The notes beneath the pieces were generated by a model. The model made no database searches. It was given only the letters and a program-made list of their open reading frames with translations, and was not told the origin of the DNA. A DNA stretch of 25,888 nt from a virus: positions 1-25,888 of IMG/VR virus record IMGVR_UViG_3300042731_000290; one strand, written 5' to 3'. The position numbers and the translations under genes are program-made. Positions 1 to 23,589 of the stretch are shown piece by piece. How positions within the stretch are numbered: position 1 is the first letter of the stretch; every line of letters begins with the position of its first letter.

Positions 1-400
1 TCTTAACGATCTCCATAAACTCACCACCCTCTGCAGAGATACCGACGGCAGCGGTTAACAGACGCTCAATAGCACAACCATTCGCTTTCAGTGCAGCAAC
101 ACGAGCGATGAACTGTGCATTATCCTTAGAGGGGGCACTAGTAACCTGATCAACGAACTCAATATAACGGTCGCCACGGGGAGCAGTGCTAGGAGTTACG
201 ACGACATTGGGAGCAACGGGTTCTGGTTGTTGAGGAACAGCACCCTGTTGACTAGTAGGATCTTCAGGATTGTCCCGCCATGCGTTCACAACCTCAGCAT
301 CACCAGGTTCTGCTTCCCAAAACTCTTTAGGACGGTTAGGACGACGAGGGGGAATAGGTTGAGGCACCTCATTATTGAGGGCATTCGTATTCATTGGCAT
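1..400 (-). CDS. Hypothetical protein, partial (N-terminal 133 residues; runs off the left edge)
   Basis: An open frame begins with ATG at 400, two bases after the TAG stop of the upstream gene, and is still open at base 1. A second in-frame ATG at 394 is an equally possible start. The first 60 or so residues are rich in proline and glutamine (runs such as PQPIPPRRPNRPKEFW and VPQQPEPVAPNV) and look disordered. The part from about residue 75, beginning RGDRYIEFVDQVTSAP, looks folded and helical and is cut by the window edge. I do not recognise the family. It is the last visible gene of the gp43-uvsX-gp41 group, so it is probably co-transcribed with replication genes. Coding is supported by tight packing and by a long open frame without stops. 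Confidence 0.75.
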   Translation of the reverse strand, partial: MPMNTNALNNEVPQPIPPRRPNRPKEFWEAEPGDAEVVNAWRDNPEDPTSQQGAVPQQPEPVAPNVVVTPSTAPRGDRYIEFVDQVTSAPSKDNAQFIARVAALKANGCAIERLLTAAVGISAEGGEFMEIVK

Positions 401-7427: not shown

Positions 7428-7435
7428 TATTTATG
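7428..7435 (-). promoter_or_regulatory. Late-promoter-like element (CATAAATA) at the regA stop codon
   Basis: The minus strand reads CATAAATA, a 7/8 match to the T4 late promoter TATAAATA and a full match to the relaxed NATAAATA form reported for cyanophages. It contains the TAA stop of regA. A transcript started here would run directly into the terminator at 7349-7373 and be about 70 bases long, unless it reads through into hsp20. Confidence 0.4.
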
Positions 7436-7868
7436 CACTTTCTCCTTCAGTTTTCTTACGGCCAATATTATACTTAGTCTCAAGAATCCAATCCCCCTTA
7501 TCTTTATAAGACAGGACTTTGATTTGGTTCAGAGGAGCGATATCAAGAATCTGATCAACATCAATGATCTTAATCAGTCCCCAATCAGCAAGCAACTGAG
7601 CGATTCTGTTACGGCGCTGGACATCATTGACTGTCAGGTTTGCTCTCTTACCATCCAGAGCAAAGAGTTCTTTAAAGTGTACGATAAAATATCTACCTTG
7701 CTTATGCAGGATGTGGCAAGACTGATACAGTTTCTTTTCCTTACGGGATGCGACTCCGATCCTCGTAAGTGTTTCTCGGACTTTCAGAAAATCATCTGGT
7801 TCACTCAGTGCAACTTCTACCATTTGATCGGCAGACCAGTTCACCGTGGGTTCAACAACGACGCTCAT
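7431..7868 (-). CDS. regA: RegA translational repressor
   Basis: This 145-residue protein is clearly T4 RegA (122 residues) with an extra N-terminal stretch. The matching core runs from VEVALSEPDDFLKVRETLTR through KKLYQSCHILHKQGRYFIVH and RRNRIAQLLADWGLIKI, and the C-terminus ends in a TKYNIG motif like the T4 end PKYTIG plus eight more residues. RegA binds the ribosome-binding region of many early phage mRNAs and blocks their translation, including its own and those of clamp and clamp-loader genes. Its placement after gp62 follows T4. Its own start has no strong Shine-Dalgarno sequence; the AT-rich leader (AAATAATAAAAAC upstream) is the kind of target RegA binds. The terminator at 7349 ends its transcript. 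Confidence 0.96.
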   Translation of the reverse strand: MSVVVEPTVNWSADQMVEVALSEPDDFLKVRETLTRIGVASRKEKKLYQSCHILHKQGRYFIVHFKELFALDGKRANLTVNDVQRRNRIAQLLADWGLIKIIDVDQILDIAPLNQIKVLSYKDKGDWILETKYNIGRKKTEGESA

Positions 7869-7891: not shown

Positions 7892-7899
7892 TTATTTAG
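7892..7899 (-). promoter_or_regulatory. Late-promoter-like element (CTAAATAA) before regA
   Basis: The minus strand reads CTAAATAA about 25 bases before the regA ATG, overlapping the TAA stop of the upstream gene. It matches six of the eight bases of the T4 late core TATAAATA. The match is partial and the region is AT-rich, so chance is possible. Confidence 0.3.
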
Positions 7900-9055: not shown

Positions 9056-9888
9056 CAGAGTTCGTAATTCATAAGGAGAAGTTCTTTACGATCCTGCTGG
9101 TTCTTCATGTAATCACCAACAGAACGCATGGTGTATGTGAGATCATACTCTTGGGCATTCCATCCTTCAAAACGATCTCTAATCAACTGAGTGGAGTTAT
9201 ACGAGACCATCTGATGACCAATAAAACGATCACAGTCTAGAGCAAACTTATCGTGATCGAACTTCTTATGCATGTTACCCTTTCTACCATACAGATTATC
9301 TTTGATATCGTATGGGGGATCGTGATAGGTGAAGACAGACTTATCATCTGTCAGCAGTTCTTCATACGAAAGATTGGTAATCTTCCAATCCTTTACAATC
9401 TGCTGATATCCTGGCAGTTTATCTATTCCACGCATCGAGAAGTTGGACTCACTTGCTTGGGCAGAAAAGGATGAGGACTCTGTGAGACCAGAAAAAGAGC
9501 ACTTGTTAACAATGTAATAACTAACGGCACGATGAAAGGGTTCACTTTTGCGTCCTTCATAAGTGAGATACTCCTTTGCTTCTAAGAACAATTGCTTTGC
9601 TGATGCAGGTTCTGGATGACGATACTTAAGTTGAATCAATTCATCTCTCATCTTTTGTCCGTTGTCACGAACCTCGCACCAGAAATTGTACAGTGGTTCA
9701 TACAGATCATTGACCCAGATATTCATGAATGGATACCGTTGAGTCATCCAGATAGCAAAAGATCCACCACCTAGAAAGGGTTCACGATACTCCGTGTAAT
9801 CCTCTAGAGATGGCAGAAACTGCAGCATCTTAGTCACTGCCCTAGATTTGCCTCCTGGGTATCTAAGCGGCGTCTTGAGAGATGTCAT
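9055..9888 (-). CDS. dam: DNA N6-adenine methyltransferase, D12/Dam class
   Basis: This 277-residue enzyme would transfer a methyl group from AdoMet to N6 of adenine in a short target. The AdoMet site is PLRYPGGKSRAVTKML (7-22) with EPFLGGGSF (36-44), and the catalytic motif IV is DPPY (190-193). The segment NKCSFSGLTESSSFSA (128-143) is the conserved part before the target-recognition region in Dam/DpnM enzymes. Length is typical for the family. The likely target is GATC by similarity to Dam, but the sequence does not prove it. Its start lies 26 bases inside the preceding small gene. No partner endonuclease gene is seen, so it is an orphan, probably protecting phage DNA or tuning replication. 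Confidence 0.95.
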   Translation of the reverse strand: MTSLKTPLRYPGGKSRAVTKMLQFLPSLEDYTEYREPFLGGGSFAIWMTQRYPFMNIWVNDLYEPLYNFWCEVRDNGQKMRDELIQLKYRHPEPASAKQLFLEAKEYLTYEGRKSEPFHRAVSYYIVNKCSFSGLTESSSFSAQASESNFSMRGIDKLPGYQQIVKDWKITNLSYEELLTDDKSVFTYHDPPYDIKDNLYGRKGNMHKKFDHDKFALDCDRFIGHQMVSYNSTQLIRDRFEGWNAQEYDLTYTMRSVGDYMKNQQDRKELLLMNYEL

Positions 9889-10045
9889 AATCAGGTTCGT
9901 TATACTTCAGGTATTCGCGGAAGGTCATTTTCATTTCCTTCTGCGTCATTCCACAGTGCTCAGCAGCAGCAGGTAGGTTCATTGTAGCATGAAATAGTGC
10001 TTCGTTGGACTCTTGCACATTCTCTGGAGTGGTCTTCTTTTTCAT
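9863..10045 (-). CDS. Small hypothetical protein, possibly helix-turn-helix
   Basis: This 60-residue protein starts at the ATG at 10045, whose ATGA overlaps the stop of the upstream gene; the open frame extends further to 10084 but that start would overlap the neighbour by 43 bases. After a basic N-terminus (KKKTTPENVQ) come two or three predicted helices, with NLPAAAEHCGMTQKEMKMTF resembling the two-helix core of an HTH (a short helix, a glycine turn, then a recognition helix). DNA binding is inference. It lies directly before the Dam-type methylase and could serve it as a regulator, but nothing in the sequence proves this. Confidence 0.65.
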   Translation of the reverse strand: MKKKTTPENVQESNEALFHATMNLPAAAEHCGMTQKEMKMTFREYLKYNEPDYDISQDAA

Positions 10046-10329
10046 TGGTTGCAGTTTTCTATGTACTGATATATTAGATTCCATCCAAACTCATAAGTCT
10101 TTCCAGTCTCATCTTGAAGGTAGAATGGGATATTTGGGTGACGAGTCTTAGCCCTATAGAAGTGGCTGATTACATTGTGATCGTCATCGATATGCCTTTC
10201 AAATTCTTTCTCCTCCTCACTCATCACCCTAGGTGGAATAACAATCTTTGCATTGCACTCCTTACAGATACCTTTGATAAAATCTTTGGAATCTTTTACG
10301 GTCTTACACTCAGGGCAAAGTTTCTTCAT
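10042..10329 (-). CDS. Small zinc-ribbon protein of unknown function
   Basis: This 95-residue protein opens with a four-cysteine zinc ribbon, CPEC (C5, C8) and CKEC (C22, C25), followed by an acidic and histidine-rich region (EFERHIDDDHNVISHFYR) and a C-terminal part with aromatic residues. The N-terminal motif resembles the small zinc ribbons seen in many phage and HNH-associated proteins. No HNH catalytic pattern is seen, so a nuclease call is not supported. Its ATG at 10329 overlaps the gp44 stop as ATGA, and it is the first of three genes inserted between gp44 and gp62. Confidence 0.75.
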   Translation of the reverse strand: MKKLCPECKTVKDSKDFIKGICKECNAKIVIPPRVMSEEEKEFERHIDDDHNVISHFYRAKTRHPNIPFYLQDETGKTYEFGWNLIYQYIENCNQ

Positions 10330-11270
10330 TTAAACTCACACTCCACCATAATCTCAGTGAGTGCTGCCAAGAGGTTGATCTCCTGGTCTGCAACGAACGC
10401 AATCTGGTACTGATACTTTGCAATGATCAGAACGGCAGCAGCAATGCTAGGACCCTGTAGGACCCCATACAGGGCATCGTAGACCCTCCTGAGGACCGTT
10501 GTGGGGTCATTGTCCAGATTGTTGACCACCCACTTCCTGACGGCAAGAAAGTCCTTTGCCTTCAGACTCCTGAGAAGATCCTCAACCTTTACATCAGAGA
10601 ACTCTGCCAGGATGGCACTGTCAATATGACCGCTGACAGAATAACGCTGACACTCATTCAGTGTCCGACGCCAGTCAGGGAAGTGCTTATTGATCAGTTC
10701 TGCAATGACCTTTTGATCATACCCAATACTCTCCTGATCCAGGATTTCTTGGAGACGCTTGAAGAATCCTCCAGCGATGACTGCTTTTTCTTTGCCTTTG
10801 ATACTGAACTCAACGACTGAACACCTGCTGTGGAGGGGTTCAATGATTTTGTTCTTGTAGTTGCAGGTGAAGATGAAGCGGCAGTTGCGATGAAATGCCT
10901 CAATATTACTCCGTAAGAGGAGTTGTACATCGTGGGTTGTGTTATCAGCTTCATCAATGATGATGACTTTGTGTCTAGCATCTGACGAAAGTGAAACGGT
11001 CGAAGCAAAATTCTTTGCCTGGTTCCGTACTGTGTCCAGAAATCTTCCCTCATCGGATCCGTTAATAAGAATATAATCGCACCCGAGTTGCTCACACAGA
11101 GCGCGGGCGACTGTTGTTTTACCACATCCAGCTGGACCAGTCAGCAGGAGATTAGGAATCTCACCTTGCTGCAACATCTCATTGAATGTCTTCTTTGTAC
11201 TCTCAGGGAGAATACAATCATCAATCTTCTTAGGGCGATACTTTTCGACCCAGAGAAACTCATTACGCAT
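10326..11270 (-). CDS. 44: Clamp loader ATPase subunit gp44 (AAA+)
   Basis: This 314-residue AAA+ ATPase (T4: 319) loads the gp45 clamp together with gp62. It shows the family N-terminus WVEKYRPKKIDDCILP, Walker A GPAGCGKT (45-52), Walker B IIIDEAD (103-109), sensor 1 FTCN, and the SRC arginine-finger motif (148-150). The open frame begins with TTG at 11276 but the ATG at 11270, right after the upstream TGA, gives the expected N-terminus MRNEFLWVEKYRP and is chosen. The gene follows an unknown conserved gene and is coupled to a zinc-ribbon gene downstream. Confidence 0.96.
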   Translation of the reverse strand: MRNEFLWVEKYRPKKIDDCILPESTKKTFNEMLQQGEIPNLLLTGPAGCGKTTVARALCEQLGCDYILINGSDEGRFLDTVRNQAKNFASTVSLSSDARHKVIIIDEADNTTHDVQLLLRSNIEAFHRNCRFIFTCNYKNKIIEPLHSRCSVVEFSIKGKEKAVIAGGFFKRLQEILDQESIGYDQKVIAELINKHFPDWRRTLNECQRYSVSGHIDSAILAEFSDVKVEDLLRSLKAKDFLAVRKWVVNNLDNDPTTVLRRVYDALYGVLQGPSIAAAVLIIAKYQYQIAFVADQEINLLAALTEIMVECEFK

Positions 11271-12656: not shown

Positions 12657-13324
12657 CACTCAAAGGTAGAATCTGGTTCCAGAGCAATGAAATACTTGAG
12701 GTTGTAAGTGGAGTTGGTGAACTGAGAGAGCAGTTTCTTAGAAATAATAACCTCGTAAGATCCAGGAATCAATTTGATATTCTCGATCTTGAAGTTCAGT
12801 TCAAAGGTCTTATCAGTTTTACCAACGATCAAAGAATACTCGTTAGAGTTATCGTTCTTACGATCAGAGACTACGAGTGTAATCTCACTGCCATTACCAA
12901 CAGCAGACAAATCAGGGAGTTGGTAGACAGAGGATGCCTTCAGAAGTTTTTGCAACTGACTGCTGTCCAGTTGAAATGCAACATCGTTGCTAGGCAGTTC
13001 GATTGCCTTCTCAGGAGGACTAACAATAACCTCAGGATCAGCAAAAGCAAACTTCACACGGGTGCTACGACCTTCGCGGATGATCATGTAAGAATCATGC
13101 TTCAGGTCGATGTCAGGGTCATTCATAAGACCAACACCGTTCAGGAACTGAGGCAGATCATAGATGCCAAAGTCCTTTTCAAAGTTTTCATCAACCTCTG
13201 CTTCTGCGAGGATGTTCTTCATCACCGAGATGGTGCGAAGTTTAGAACCCTTCTTCACCAGGATGGACTGGTTAATTGAAGAGAAGTTCTCCAAAAGATC
13301 AATAGTCTTTTCAGAAAGTTTCAT
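12656..13324 (-). CDS. 45: Sliding clamp gp45 (DNA polymerase accessory protein)
   Basis: This 222-residue protein matches T4 gp45 (228). The trimeric ring holds gp43 on DNA and also acts as the mobile enhancer of late transcription with gp55. The start MKLSEKTIDLLENFSSINQS corresponds to T4 MKLSKDTTALLKNFATIN, and the end YFIALEPDSTFE corresponds to T4 YVIALEADSTHDF. The internal stretch IYDLPQFLNGVGLMNDPDI also matches. The open frame reaches 13483, but the first 53 residues are out-of-frame read-through of the upstream gene and have no homology. An alternative ATG at 13336 would add MNKD. The gene overlaps the DUF3310-like gene by 14 bases. Confidence 0.95.
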   Translation of the reverse strand: MKLSEKTIDLLENFSSINQSILVKKGSKLRTISVMKNILAEAEVDENFEKDFGIYDLPQFLNGVGLMNDPDIDLKHDSYMIIREGRSTRVKFAFADPEVIVSPPEKAIELPSNDVAFQLDSSQLQKLLKASSVYQLPDLSAVGNGSEITLVVSDRKNDNSNEYSLIVGKTDKTFELNFKIENIKLIPGSYEVIISKKLLSQFTNSTYNLKYFIALEPDSTFE

Positions 13325-13700
13325 ATCCTTGTTCATCAGTTTCAGAGTCTTTGGTGGTGAAGTGGTAGAGAAGAACGGCATAGTGGATGATCTTCTTGAG
13401 ATCCATTTTAGCACTACCTTTCTTGTCATAACGAGAGGCGTACTTAAGAATATTGCTACGGCAGAAAGCAGCAGCATCTCCACAGGAATCGATCAGATCA
13501 AGAGTCTGGATTCCGTTGCCAGAGTTGTAATGAGCACGGTATGTATCACCGATATAGTCCTTCACATCTTGAAGGATTTTGTCTTCATTGTATTTGTACA
13601 CTGTTTTTTCAGTAAGTTCTAATTCAAATGTGTAGAGATCTCTCTCCTCAGGCTCAAGATTGCCGTGCATTTCGTCATACAGAAGTGACCATGAGTTCAT
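13311..13700 (-). CDS. DUF3310-like protein
   Basis: This 129-residue protein carries in its second half the pattern of the DUF3310 (SaV-type) family: a histidine before a short gap and IQTLDLIDSCGDAAAFCRSN, then ILKYASRYDKKGSAKMDLKK and IIHYAVLLY. The conserved pattern is NxxKYxxRxxxKG followed by DLxKxxxYxxxL. The family is found in many phages; nucleotide-kinase labels in databases are not backed by any motif seen here. The N-terminal 45 residues are specific to this protein. Its ATG shares a base with the stop of the CobS-like gene (TAATG), and it runs into gp45. Confidence 0.85.
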   Translation of the reverse strand: MNSWSLLYDEMHGNLEPEERDLYTFELELTEKTVYKYNEDKILQDVKDYIGDTYRAHYNSGNGIQTLDLIDSCGDAAAFCRSNILKYASRYDKKGSAKMDLKKIIHYAVLLYHFTTKDSETDEQGYETF

Positions 13701-20902: not shown

Positions 20903-21101
20903 GATGCGCTTTTAGATTAGGGTCAGGGTTGCTTTCTTCTCTAGGAGTTTTCCTTTTTACGACAATAAACTTGTCCGCTGCAAAGGTTCCTGCAATTTGA
21001 ATTTCAATCTCGTCACCATCATTCCAAATTTCTTCACCATTCTTTTTCTTCATTGCTAGAGCACACTCTAGTTCTGCAATAATCTCGTCAGTAATTTTCA
21101 T
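20889..21101 (-). CDS. Small hypothetical protein, 70 aa
   Basis: This 70-residue protein has an N-terminal helix (ITDEIIAELECALAMKKKNG), then a likely pair of strands (DEIEIQIAGTFAADKFIVVK) and a polar tail. I do not recognise a family. The ATG overlaps the gp55 stop as ATGA, and the end overlaps the 48-aa gene by 14 bases, so it belongs to the gp55-gp47-gp46 transcript. Confidence 0.75.
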   Translation of the reverse strand: MKITDEIIAELECALAMKKKNGEEIWNDGDEIEIQIAGTFAADKFIVVKRKTPREESNPDPNLKAHHAEP

Positions 21102-21571
21102 CGACTAGACCTGTATTGAATGTTATCTTTAATAGAGTTGTAATCAGAAGCACTACCAGAGGCACCCTCTTCTACAACCATCACTTGATCATATCCAGTT
21201 CTCTCAATAATCTTAGTCTTAATTTCTAACTGCTTCTTCTCCTTTTGAATACGACGCAGGAAGGCATAGTAAATAATCTGAGTAAAATAAGCAAACGGGT
21301 TGTTAGATTTCTCAGGGTCAAAGTTATGTATATACTGAACGCAGTTCTCAATTCCGTCTCCGATCATATCTTCCCTGAACATGTAGTTCACGAAGTTCGG
21401 TTTATATGAAAGGTGTGTTGCAATCTTCAGAAAACACTCTCCAAGGTAATTGCCAATCGGTGGAGGTGGAAGATCTTTTTCCTTCGCAACAGCACACTTC
21501 TTCCGATAGACGACCATTGCCTCCAGAAGTTCTTTATTATTAACATAATGATCAGATCTCTTCCTAGGCAT
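21098..21571 (-). CDS. 55: Late-transcription sigma factor gp55
   Basis: This 157-residue protein corresponds to T4 gp55 (185), the divergent sigma factor that directs host RNA polymerase to late promoters. Matching blocks are YVNNKELLEAMVVYRKKC, REDMIGDGIENCVQYIHNFD and NPFAYFTQIIYYAFLRRIQKEKK, which line up with T4 YVNNKELLQAI, EMIADGIEASIKGLHNFD and [23 protein letters not shown]. The C-terminus ends KDNIQYRSSR and lacks the T4 clamp-binding tail LDFLYE. A near-consensus host-type promoter drives it, as expected for a gene needed before late transcription. A co-activator gp33 gene is not seen in the window. Confidence 0.95.
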   Translation of the reverse strand: MPRKRSDHYVNNKELLEAMVVYRKKCAVAKEKDLPPPPIGNYLGECFLKIATHLSYKPNFVNYMFREDMIGDGIENCVQYIHNFDPEKSNNPFAYFTQIIYYAFLRRIQKEKKQLEIKTKIIERTGYDQVMVVEEGASGSASDYNSIKDNIQYRSSR

Positions 21572-21594: not shown

Positions 21595-21623
21595 ATTATA
21601 ACATATTCGTAAAAATCTGTCAG
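21595..21623 (-). promoter_or_regulatory. Near-consensus sigma70-type promoter for gp55
   Basis: On the minus strand CTGACA (21623-21618), 17 bases, then TATAAT (21600-21595). The ATG follows 23 bases after the -10 box. The -35 box lies in an inverted repeat, CTGTCA-6-TGACAG (21617-21634), shared with a plus-strand promoter. Confidence 0.85.
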
Positions 21624-21627
21624 GAGC

Positions 21628-21656
21628 TTGACAGACTATCGAAATATGTGTACAAT
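21628..21656 (+). promoter_or_regulatory. Near-consensus sigma70-type promoter on the plus strand (antisense direction)
   Basis: On the plus strand TTGACA (21628-21633), 17 bases, then TACAAT (21651-21656): 11 of 12 consensus bases at ideal spacing. It points away from gp55 and toward the antisense strand of the Sm-like gene (from 21696) and uvsW. No plus-strand gene of reasonable length follows, so a product would be a noncoding or antisense RNA starting near 21663. The sequence just after the -10 box is an inverted repeat, AACCT-5-AGGTT. Confidence 0.55.
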
Positions 21657-21695
21657 AACCTTGTCGAGGTTCAAAAGAAACATAGCTTTTAAGCT

Positions 21696-22124
21696 TTAAG
21701 CATGTGTAGCGATTCCAGACACATGATCAGCTGTAGTATTATAGATCTTCTCTAGGTTCGATCTTGCGTCTTTTACGCTACCTAGAGATCCCATCTCTTT
21801 GCTTACTCTAACCTTGCGCTCTCCATCGACATAGAATGCTCTTTGGAGATTGTAGTGTTGATATGCTTCAACCATCTCATGATTTTCTGGCAGTTCGGTC
21901 ATTGTAATGACCTTATCAGGTTTAATGATAAAGATATCATCATCTGGAACTGACATCCAGGGCACTAGTTTCATATAACCAGAAGAACCTCTGGTCATGG
22001 TCTCAACTTTTAGCGGCGTTTGCATCACGATCACAGGATCTGTGTCGTTGTCATCAATCATTATTTCTGAGATGACCTCTTCGCCTGATACTAACTTTAG
22101 GCAGCAGTAGAACTCTTCATTCAT
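21696..22124 (-). CDS. Conserved phage protein, possible Sm-like (LSm) fold, copy 3
   Basis: This 142-residue protein begins EEFYCCLKLVSGEEVISEIM, an Sm1-like strand pattern with the SGE turn, and has an Sm2-like strand FIIKPDKVITMTELPENHEM near residue 80. These two parts match in order and type the small proteins at 6175-6468 and 6465-6770. It has about 40 extra residues at the C-terminus (FYVDGERKVRVSKEMG and on), which look polar and helical. RNA binding is inference. It overlaps the uvsW stop by 8 bases, so it is the last gene of the uvsY-uvsW transcript. No clear terminator follows it. Confidence 0.85.
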   Translation of the reverse strand: MNEEFYCCLKLVSGEEVISEIMIDDNDTDPVIVMQTPLKVETMTRGSSGYMKLVPWMSVPDDDIFIIKPDKVITMTELPENHEMVEAYQHYNLQRAFYVDGERKVRVSKEMGSLGSVKDARSNLEKIYNTTADHVSGIATHA

Positions 22125-23589
22125 GTTTGTTCTTTAAATTTACTTTGATGATCTCATAATTAAAGTTCTCTTCGTTATAAATTTTTATTCTCTCGATAAG
22201 ATGATTCAGAGTATAATTCTTTTTCACCTTAGATGAACAGTCATCAGCGATATCATATAGGGTTGCTTTAAATTTGTTAGCCCCTTTCCTCAAAACCCTA
22301 CCAATGCTTTGGAGGTTTCTAATTCGTGATTTTGAAGGCGATGCGAAGATTACATTATGTAGATTTTTGATATTAATTCCAGTGCTAAATGTGCCGTAAG
22401 ATGCAACAATGATTGCACTGTCTTGTGTTTCTGTTATGGAGCGAGCGAGTTCTCTATTCTCAACATCTACACCGCCGTGAATAAAGAATACTTTTCGGTG
22501 TTCATCGACCGAACTATTTATCATTTCATATAATACCTTTCCATGGTCTTCTACTCTTGAGAACAAGACTAGAGTGTTTCCTTTTAGATCAACTGCGAGG
22601 TTCCTAATAAATTTGTTTCTCTGCTCGTGTCCGATGAGGTATTGAATTTCCTCCTCATATTGCGAAAATGGTTTTTTATCGTGCATTAACAACAAAATTT
22701 TTGCATTTAATGTTGCTAAGTATCCTTTTTCCATTAATTCATCCGTTCGGATGATCTTATATGACGGTCCAAAGAGACCTTCTAGCACTAACTTATGAGT
22801 TTGCGTACCATCTAGCGTTCCAGTAAACCCATACCTATACTTGGCATGATGTAGTTTTGTCATGATTCCTACGAGAGATTTAGACTTGAACTGGTGTGCC
22901 TCGTCTCCGATTACACAGTCGAACCTCTCGAAATATTTCTTCTCTAATTTATAGATAGATTGCCAAGTTGTGATAACTACTGGTGCCTTTGCATCTCGCT
23001 CTCTACCAGCATATACCTTATGACAGTATGACTCAACATCCCATCCATAATCTGCGAAGTCCTTATACATCTGCTCTACCAGAGATGTCGTTGGAACAAC
23101 TACAAGAATACTTTTCTTATGCTCTGCAAAGTACCTCACGATTGAGTAAATCATCAAAGATTTGCCAGAGGCTGTTGGGCTTATCAATAGTCTTCTATTG
23201 TGTCTCAGAGCATCGTATACACCCTCAATCTGATAATCTCTAGGAGCATGTCTAGAAATAGATGTCATATAATCTTTGACACCCTCCATAGAGATCATGT
23301 CATTAGACTCGAATGGTAGACCATAAAACTTATTGTTCTCGAATGTATATTCGTAATTGTATCTCTTACAAAAAGAGACTACTTTATCTAAGAGACCGAC
23401 ATAGATCTCACCAGTCTGCATATTGAAAAGGCGAATTTTTCCATCCCAGTATTTTTTTCTATACTGAGGCATAAATTTCGCACCCTCAACATCGAATGTA
23501 AATTGATCTGACAACTCATGGTAAACATGAGGGTCTGCTTCAATCTTGAGAAATACTTCGTTCTTCTTAGAAATTACGATTTTACTCAT
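22117..23589 (-). CDS. uvsW: UvsW DNA/RNA helicase
   Basis: This 490-residue superfamily 2 helicase (T4: 503) removes R-loops, reverses stalled forks and helps switch from origin-dependent to recombination-dependent replication. The N-terminal 100 residues are the small DNA-binding domain. Motif I is SPTASGKS (137-144), motif II is DEAH (229-232), motif III is FTGTLDG, and motif VI is QSIGRVLRKG. The DYQIEGVYDAL segment before motif I is the Q-motif-like region. The gene is complete. It is coupled to the exported HEGWH protein before it (ATGA) and to the Sm-like gene after it. Confidence 0.97.
   Translation of the reverse strand: MSKIVISKKNEVFLKIEADPHVYHELSDQFTFDVEGAKFMPQYRKKYWDGKIRLFNMQTGEIYVGLLDKVVSFCKRYNYEYTFENNKFYGLPFESNDMISMEGVKDYMTSISRHAPRDYQIEGVYDALRHNRRLLISPTASGKSLMIYSIVRYFAEHKKSILVVVPTTSLVEQMYKDFADYGWDVESYCHKVYAGRERDAKAPVVITTWQSIYKLEKKYFERFDCVIGDEAHQFKSKSLVGIMTKLHHAKYRYGFTGTLDGTQTHKLVLEGLFGPSYKIIRTDELMEKGYLATLNAKILLLMHDKKPFSQYEEEIQYLIGHEQRNKFIRNLAVDLKGNTLVLFSRVEDHGKVLYEMINSSVDEHRKVFFIHGGVDVENRELARSITETQDSAIIVASYGTFSTGINIKNLHNVIFASPSKSRIRNLQSIGRVLRKGANKFKATLYDIADDCSSKVKKNYTLNHLIERIKIYNEENFNYEIIKVNLKNKHE

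Follow-up and report, generated by a model that had tools for sequence, protein, structure and literature searches.

The window, by which we mean the whole stretch of 25,888 bases analysed here (an IMG/VR virus record), comes from a T4-like cyanophage of the Kyanoviridae, of whose genome it is a fragment. Its gp55 is 81% identical to that of Marine virus AG-345-L05 and 80% identical to that of P-SSM2, both members of the Kyanoviridae. The surrounding gene order, uvsY-uvsW-Sm-like-gp55-47-46, is kept in most isolates examined, small insertions aside. Two promoter-like sequences pointing in opposite directions lie upstream of gp55 (Table 1). The one on the plus strand faces the Sm-like gene, which is labelled 'methylamine utilization' in annotations, as the first gene ahead, and uvsW as the second. 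In another part of the window a DUF3310 domain (PF11753, E=2e-11) is encoded by an ORF at 13311-13700 (minus strand), which adjoins a CobS-like gene and was found in 15/15 genomes.

Table 1. Features at the gp55 locus, in window coordinates
Feature	Position	Strand	Description
gp55 gene, late-transcription sigma factor	21098..21571	-	phrog_234, E=1.5e-68; orthologues in Syn9 and P-SSM2
gp55 promoter	21595..21623	-	-35 CTGACA 21623-21618, 17 nt, -10 TATAAT 21600-21595; 11/12
Inverted repeat CTGTCA-6-TGACAG containing both -35 boxes	21617..21634	.	lineage-specific form of the CTTGTCAAG palindrome
Antisense promoter (predicted)	21628..21656	+	-35 TTGACA 21628-21633, 17-nt spacer, -10 TACAAT 21651-21656; 11/12
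Start-site element AACCTTGTCGAGGTT	21657..21671	+	imperfect inverted repeat over the predicted start; form conserved, covaries within genomes
Sm-like domain gene	21696..22124	-	PF16243, E=3.1e-10; phrog_471
uvsW helicase gene	22117..23589	-	phrog_16, E=1e-116; orthologues annotated UvsW

The promoter pair upstream of gp55

An earlier note on this DNA had proposed a minus-strand promoter, CTGACA-17-TATAAT, ahead of gp55 and a plus-strand promoter, TTGACA-17-TACAAT, with no gene ahead, and both were found exactly where it had placed them, each with 11/12 matches. The plus-strand sequence is of the sigma70 type (TTGACA/TATAAT-like boxes, 16-18 nt apart), its predicted +1 is the G at 21663, and its orientation is antisense to the Sm-like gene (PF16243, E=3e-10) and uvsW, as had been claimed. 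The -10 of the gp55 promoter is TG-extended in the window (TGTTATAAT). Six matches of at least 11/12 are present in the 25.9-kb window. Five lie on the strand of the genes; the sixth, on the plus strand, is the antisense promoter. In 300 first-order Markov shuffles of the window, the mean number of such matches was 0.8 and a divergent pair within 62 bp occurred in none (0/300), which agrees with the view that the pair is unlikely to be accidental. No late-type promoter was detected at the site, as the window does not contain TATAAATA and no late-type motif matched between 21590 and 21670.

Of at least 599 relatives found by the gp55 protein, the best 80 were taken for an analysis of conservation, and 79 of these had enough upstream sequence; these 79 IMG/VR relatives and the window make up the 80 sequences scored, in an ungapped alignment anchored at the antisense -35. 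The antisense promoter faces Sm-like/uvsW in the window, in all 79 relatives and in 16 of 17 isolates and single-cell genomes. These 16 have it with 17-nt spacing (Syn9, S-ShM2, S-RIM2, S-RIM8, ACG-2014a/d/f/i, P-SSM2, P-HM2, Syn1, S-SKS1, S-SRM01, S-8S55, AG-345-L05 and S-PM2), and the seventeenth, MC09, has a diverged site (TTAACA-18-TACACT). Single-base changes in the boxes were seen in ACG-2014f (TTGCCA/TATAAT), P-HM2 (TACACT), S-SRM01 (TAGACT) and S-ShM2 (TAAACT). In Syn9 (DQ149023) the predicted antisense start lies near 123698, on the minus strand. Among the 80 sequences, with 74 distinct elements, TTGACA and TA[C/G]AAT are almost invariant and the spacing is 17 in 79, while the central spacer positions vary freely, which is the pattern of a promoter under selection. 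Exact TTGACA-16..18-TAnAAT sequences opposite genes number 0-3 per genome, and the recurrent one is the gp55 site. The conservation of the plus-strand boxes in related phages, which the earlier note had put forward as a check, was thus seen in all relatives sampled and makes a functional antisense promoter very likely. We therefore regard the plus-strand sequence, with high confidence, as a genuine sigma70-type promoter that is under selection and predicted to be active.

Conservation of both sets of boxes was confirmed for the plus strand and for the gp55 -10, but not for the gp55 -35 and its spacing, which vary among the 80 sequences; the antisense member is therefore the better conserved of the two. 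The gp55 -10 is of the TGnTATAAT type in 80/80 sequences (TATAAT itself in 75). A single palindromic -35, CTTGTCAAG, which reads TTGTCA on the gp55 strand and TTGACA on the other, serves both promoters in 53/80 sequences, whereas separate -35 boxes are present in 27, including the window, where they lie 6 nt apart; polymerases bound at the two promoters would thus overlap in their footprints. The inverted repeat CTGTCA-6-TGACAG is located as first described, but it is not the general arrangement. In view of the single -35 in most sequences it appears as a local lineage variant, which the closest relative keeps in part (TGTCA..TGACA). One -35 common to both promoters in most relatives makes mutual hindrance more plausible than when it was first proposed, and from this layout it is a plausible prediction.

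The start-site element and its promoter class

Directly after the -10 of the antisense promoter lies an element of 15-16 bp, spanning -6 to +9, which had been missed by the earlier note, as had its copies elsewhere in relatives and its covariation within genomes. The element differs among phages and agrees within one phage. Its copies read AACACTGTCAGGGTT and AACACTGCCAGGGTT in Syn9, and AACAATGTCAGATGT and AACAATGTCAGATAT in ACG-2014d; S-SRM01 has three copies of AGGTTTGTT and a fourth, AGGTTTGTC; S-ShM2 has TAAACT-AACACTGT three times; and S-PM2 and MC09 have AACTCTGTC and TACACTTGTAGTGT, respectively, twice each. In S-PM2 the pattern of the element matches twice, at the gp55-antisense site and at one sense site. 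No second copy was found in P-SSM2, P-HM2 and the incomplete AG-345-L05.

To quantify this agreement, each antisense element was scored against every promoter with 10/12 matches or more, both in its own genome and in 13 others. The best own-genome match was 7.79/9, compared to 6.28/9 elsewhere (50,000 permutations, p<2e-5). The agreement is limited to about nine bases after the -10, positions 10-15 and 16-30 (p=0.07) not being significant. A previous covariation test with chosen copies gave a concordant result, with no significance for the spacer (p=0.09); the all-promoter test is preferred, because those copies had been picked by eye in two genomes. Covariation holds in S-PM2 and MC09, neither of which was used in its discovery. 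The inverted symmetry of the element exceeds that of a half-site shuffle, even with one example per left half, and the spacing of the half-sites is variable.

Among the 117 matches listed from an IMG/VR scan with TTGACA-N17-TASAATAACC, 81 are antisense and just upstream of gp55; a further 35 are on pieces that lack gp55, some of them belonging to unrelated viruses, and the remaining one lies elsewhere. Most genomes contain 1-3 further promoters with the element of the gp55-antisense site, mostly in sense orientation, before CpeT, CP12 or small early-region genes. Several of the other scan matches have the whole extended unit, with the bases that follow the -10, in sense orientation before a family of ~70-aa ORFs (9/9 IMG/VR members), CpeT, CP12 and others, and this placement argues that the gp55-antisense unit works as a promoter in its own direction. 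It is likely, with good confidence, that transcription from the promoter runs antisense into Sm-like/uvsW and that the promoter is one of a small phage-specific class marked by the 15-bp start-site element.

Several members of this class were observed individually. Sense copies lie right before the host-metabolism genes CP12 (ACG-2014a, 12323) and cpeT (S-RIM2, 13290). S-SRM01 (NC_070963) has two further back-to-back pairs with the element, one at ~10909-10970 ahead of a gene for a thioredoxin-domain protein, its -35 boxes forming an inverted repeat with a 4-nt gap, and one at ~179330-179370 beside a homing endonuclease gene, with a single CTTGTCAAG -35. In ACG-2014f, the -35 is TTGCCA instead of TTGACA in four promoters of the class (41025, 151367, 210337 and the gp55-antisense one at 109086), and the -35 may therefore covary within a genome as well.

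Several promoters sharing one site, as in an operator regulon, were found in most genomes, but not in P-SSM2 and P-HM2. As the sequence of the element is a property of the phage genome, it is best explained as the predicted binding site of a phage-encoded factor, and we see about an even chance that it is the operator of a phage-encoded DNA-binding regulator co-evolving with its sites. A cognate regulator was not found among the core small proteins searched. A small ORF with a Fis-like-looking helix-turn-helix pattern (window 9863-10084, minus strand) was considered as a candidate. It is present in 13 of 15 genomes of cyanophages and absent from that of P-HM2, which has a diverged element, but it gained no support: Pfam gave no match, and the groups formed by its sequences do not follow the element type. 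We read the promoters with the element as members of a small phage-specific regulon, in which the antisense promoter at gp55 would be the constant one. The conserved promoter together with a phage-specific start-site code suggests an undescribed control circuit and not chance.

Proposed antisense transcription and alternative explanations

The predicted transcript would be cis-antisense to the Sm-like gene and uvsW. The Rfam scan gave no match, and neither a conserved antisense-strand terminator within 2.6 kb of the gp55 site nor a conserved antisense ORF (median 23 aa) was found. The 3' end of the Sm-like gene showed no clear rise in synonymous-site conservation, so a sequence-specific RNA body on the antisense strand is not indicated there. 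These results also argue against a promoter that yields a defined trans-acting small RNA or small peptide, which we consider unlikely even though terminator-like hairpins lie ~65-75 nt after a few sense copies (ACG-2014f 210337, S-SRM01 44601 and S-SKS1 169894). As cyanobacteria also lack Rho (PMC13289151), what matters is more likely the process of antisense transcription itself, or plain complementarity, than a defined small RNA. Another possibility is that the transcript primes DNA replication, as at the R-loop origins of T4, which use promoter R-loops that UvsW unwinds (PMC3016281); the site adjoins uvsW. However, the start-site element is also present at ordinary promoters elsewhere, and the GC-skew extremes do not lie at gp55 in the 15 genomes examined, a weak test since the genes are co-directional. 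An origin is highly improbable.

The conserved block could instead serve the gp55 promoter as an upstream activator site or UP-type element that resembles a promoter; it lies just upstream of the gp55 promoter in every relative. Its distance to the gp55 -10, however, varies between 13 and 91 nt with no phasing, it forms a full TTGACA-17-TAnnnT promoter in the opposite direction, and it is also found in sense orientation before other genes, so that this role is very unlikely. The agreement of elements within a genome might reflect recent promoter duplication or gene conversion without any regulator, and the S-SRM01 pair with a common -35 beside a homing endonuclease is what such events could leave behind. 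The similarity is, however, confined to the nine or so bases after the -10, with the spacer and bases 16-30 not significantly above chance, and we regard this explanation as unlikely. That both promoter-like matches are meaningless has a negligible probability: weaker matches are indeed common in the region (24 at a 9/12 threshold, compared to 22.6 expected), but the absence of the pair from the shuffles speaks against chance and the family-wide conservation already refutes it.

Taken as a whole, a selected antisense promoter, a class marked by the element, an operator and an exclusion mechanism form the explanation that we somewhat favour. The proposed mechanism, promoter exclusion combined with antisense restraint of gp55, Sm-like and uvsW, is tentative. 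Early in infection, the host sigma70 polymerase would be able to bind only one promoter of the back-to-back pair at any moment. Firing of the antisense promoter would limit initiation at gp55, and collision or antisense RNA would keep the Sm-like and uvsW mRNA low. The antisense promoter would then be silenced by a regulator or by the shut-off of sigma70 transcription, and gp55 and the uvsW block would be released. An antisense promoter that acts early on uvsW and that excludes polymerase from the late-sigma gene's own promoter may thus hold back uvsW and limit the supply of gp55 for as long as it stays on.

T4 transcribes uvsW from a late promoter, and the UvsW helicase unwinds R-loops at origins (PMC3016281). 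Directly before the uvsW gene of the window no late promoter was found, and CTAAATA/ATAAATA lies ~28 nt upstream in some relatives only. CTAAATA, a possible cyanophage late-promoter core, occurs seven times on the gene strand of the window (minus-strand sites at 7899, 6833, 25592 and four other positions) and never on the other strand. One copy lies ~25 nt before a RegA-like gene (7431-7868), named from reading its sequence.

The ordering of early versus later expression in T4-like cyanophages has been described as unclear (PMC2984593). A family-wide antisense promoter at the late-sigma gene and a covarying start-site code found at a handful of promoters in each genome provide concrete sites, genes and phages for this question, with Syn9, S-PM2, P-SSM2 and P-HM2 as cultured systems. 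It is possible, though we propose it with reserve, that the Kyanoviridae encode an unrecognised sequence-specific regulator co-evolving with the 15-bp start-site operator, and that its mini-regulon comprises takeover genes (CP12, CpeT, small early-region genes) and an antisense brake on the late-sigma/uvsW region. If so, one factor would help to set the timing of host takeover as well as that of the early-to-late switch.

Comparison with known systems

No mention of an antisense promoter at gp55 was found in the literature searched. An antisense RNA in a T4-like cyanophage, as proposed here at gp55, is known from S-PM2: CfrI was reported to be the first found in any T4-like phage (Millard et al. 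2010, cited in PMC2984593 and PMC5931967). According to these sources, CfrI is ~225 nt long, lies over psbA and a homing endonuclease gene and was detected experimentally, whereas the gp55 antisense promoter is kept across the family and is known by prediction only. The early promoters of cyanomyoviruses (S-PM2, Syn9) are likewise of the TTGACA-17-TATAAT type and used by the unmodified host polymerase (PMC2984593); the gp55-antisense subclass differs from them by a TA[C/G]AAT-type -10 and a conserved, covarying element from -6 to +9. Cyanophages lack motA and asiA (PMC2984593).

Overlapping divergent sigma70 promoters with interference similarly consist of two near-consensus promoters too close for joint occupancy, one of them antisense. 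In contrast to these, the gp55 pair often has a single palindromic -35, its antisense member is the more conserved one and bears a genome-specific start-site element. The MotA-dependent middle promoters of T4 also add a phage-specific motif to a sigma70 -10. In these promoters the MotA box takes the place of the -35, whereas the gp55-antisense class keeps a perfect -35 and has its extra motif downstream.
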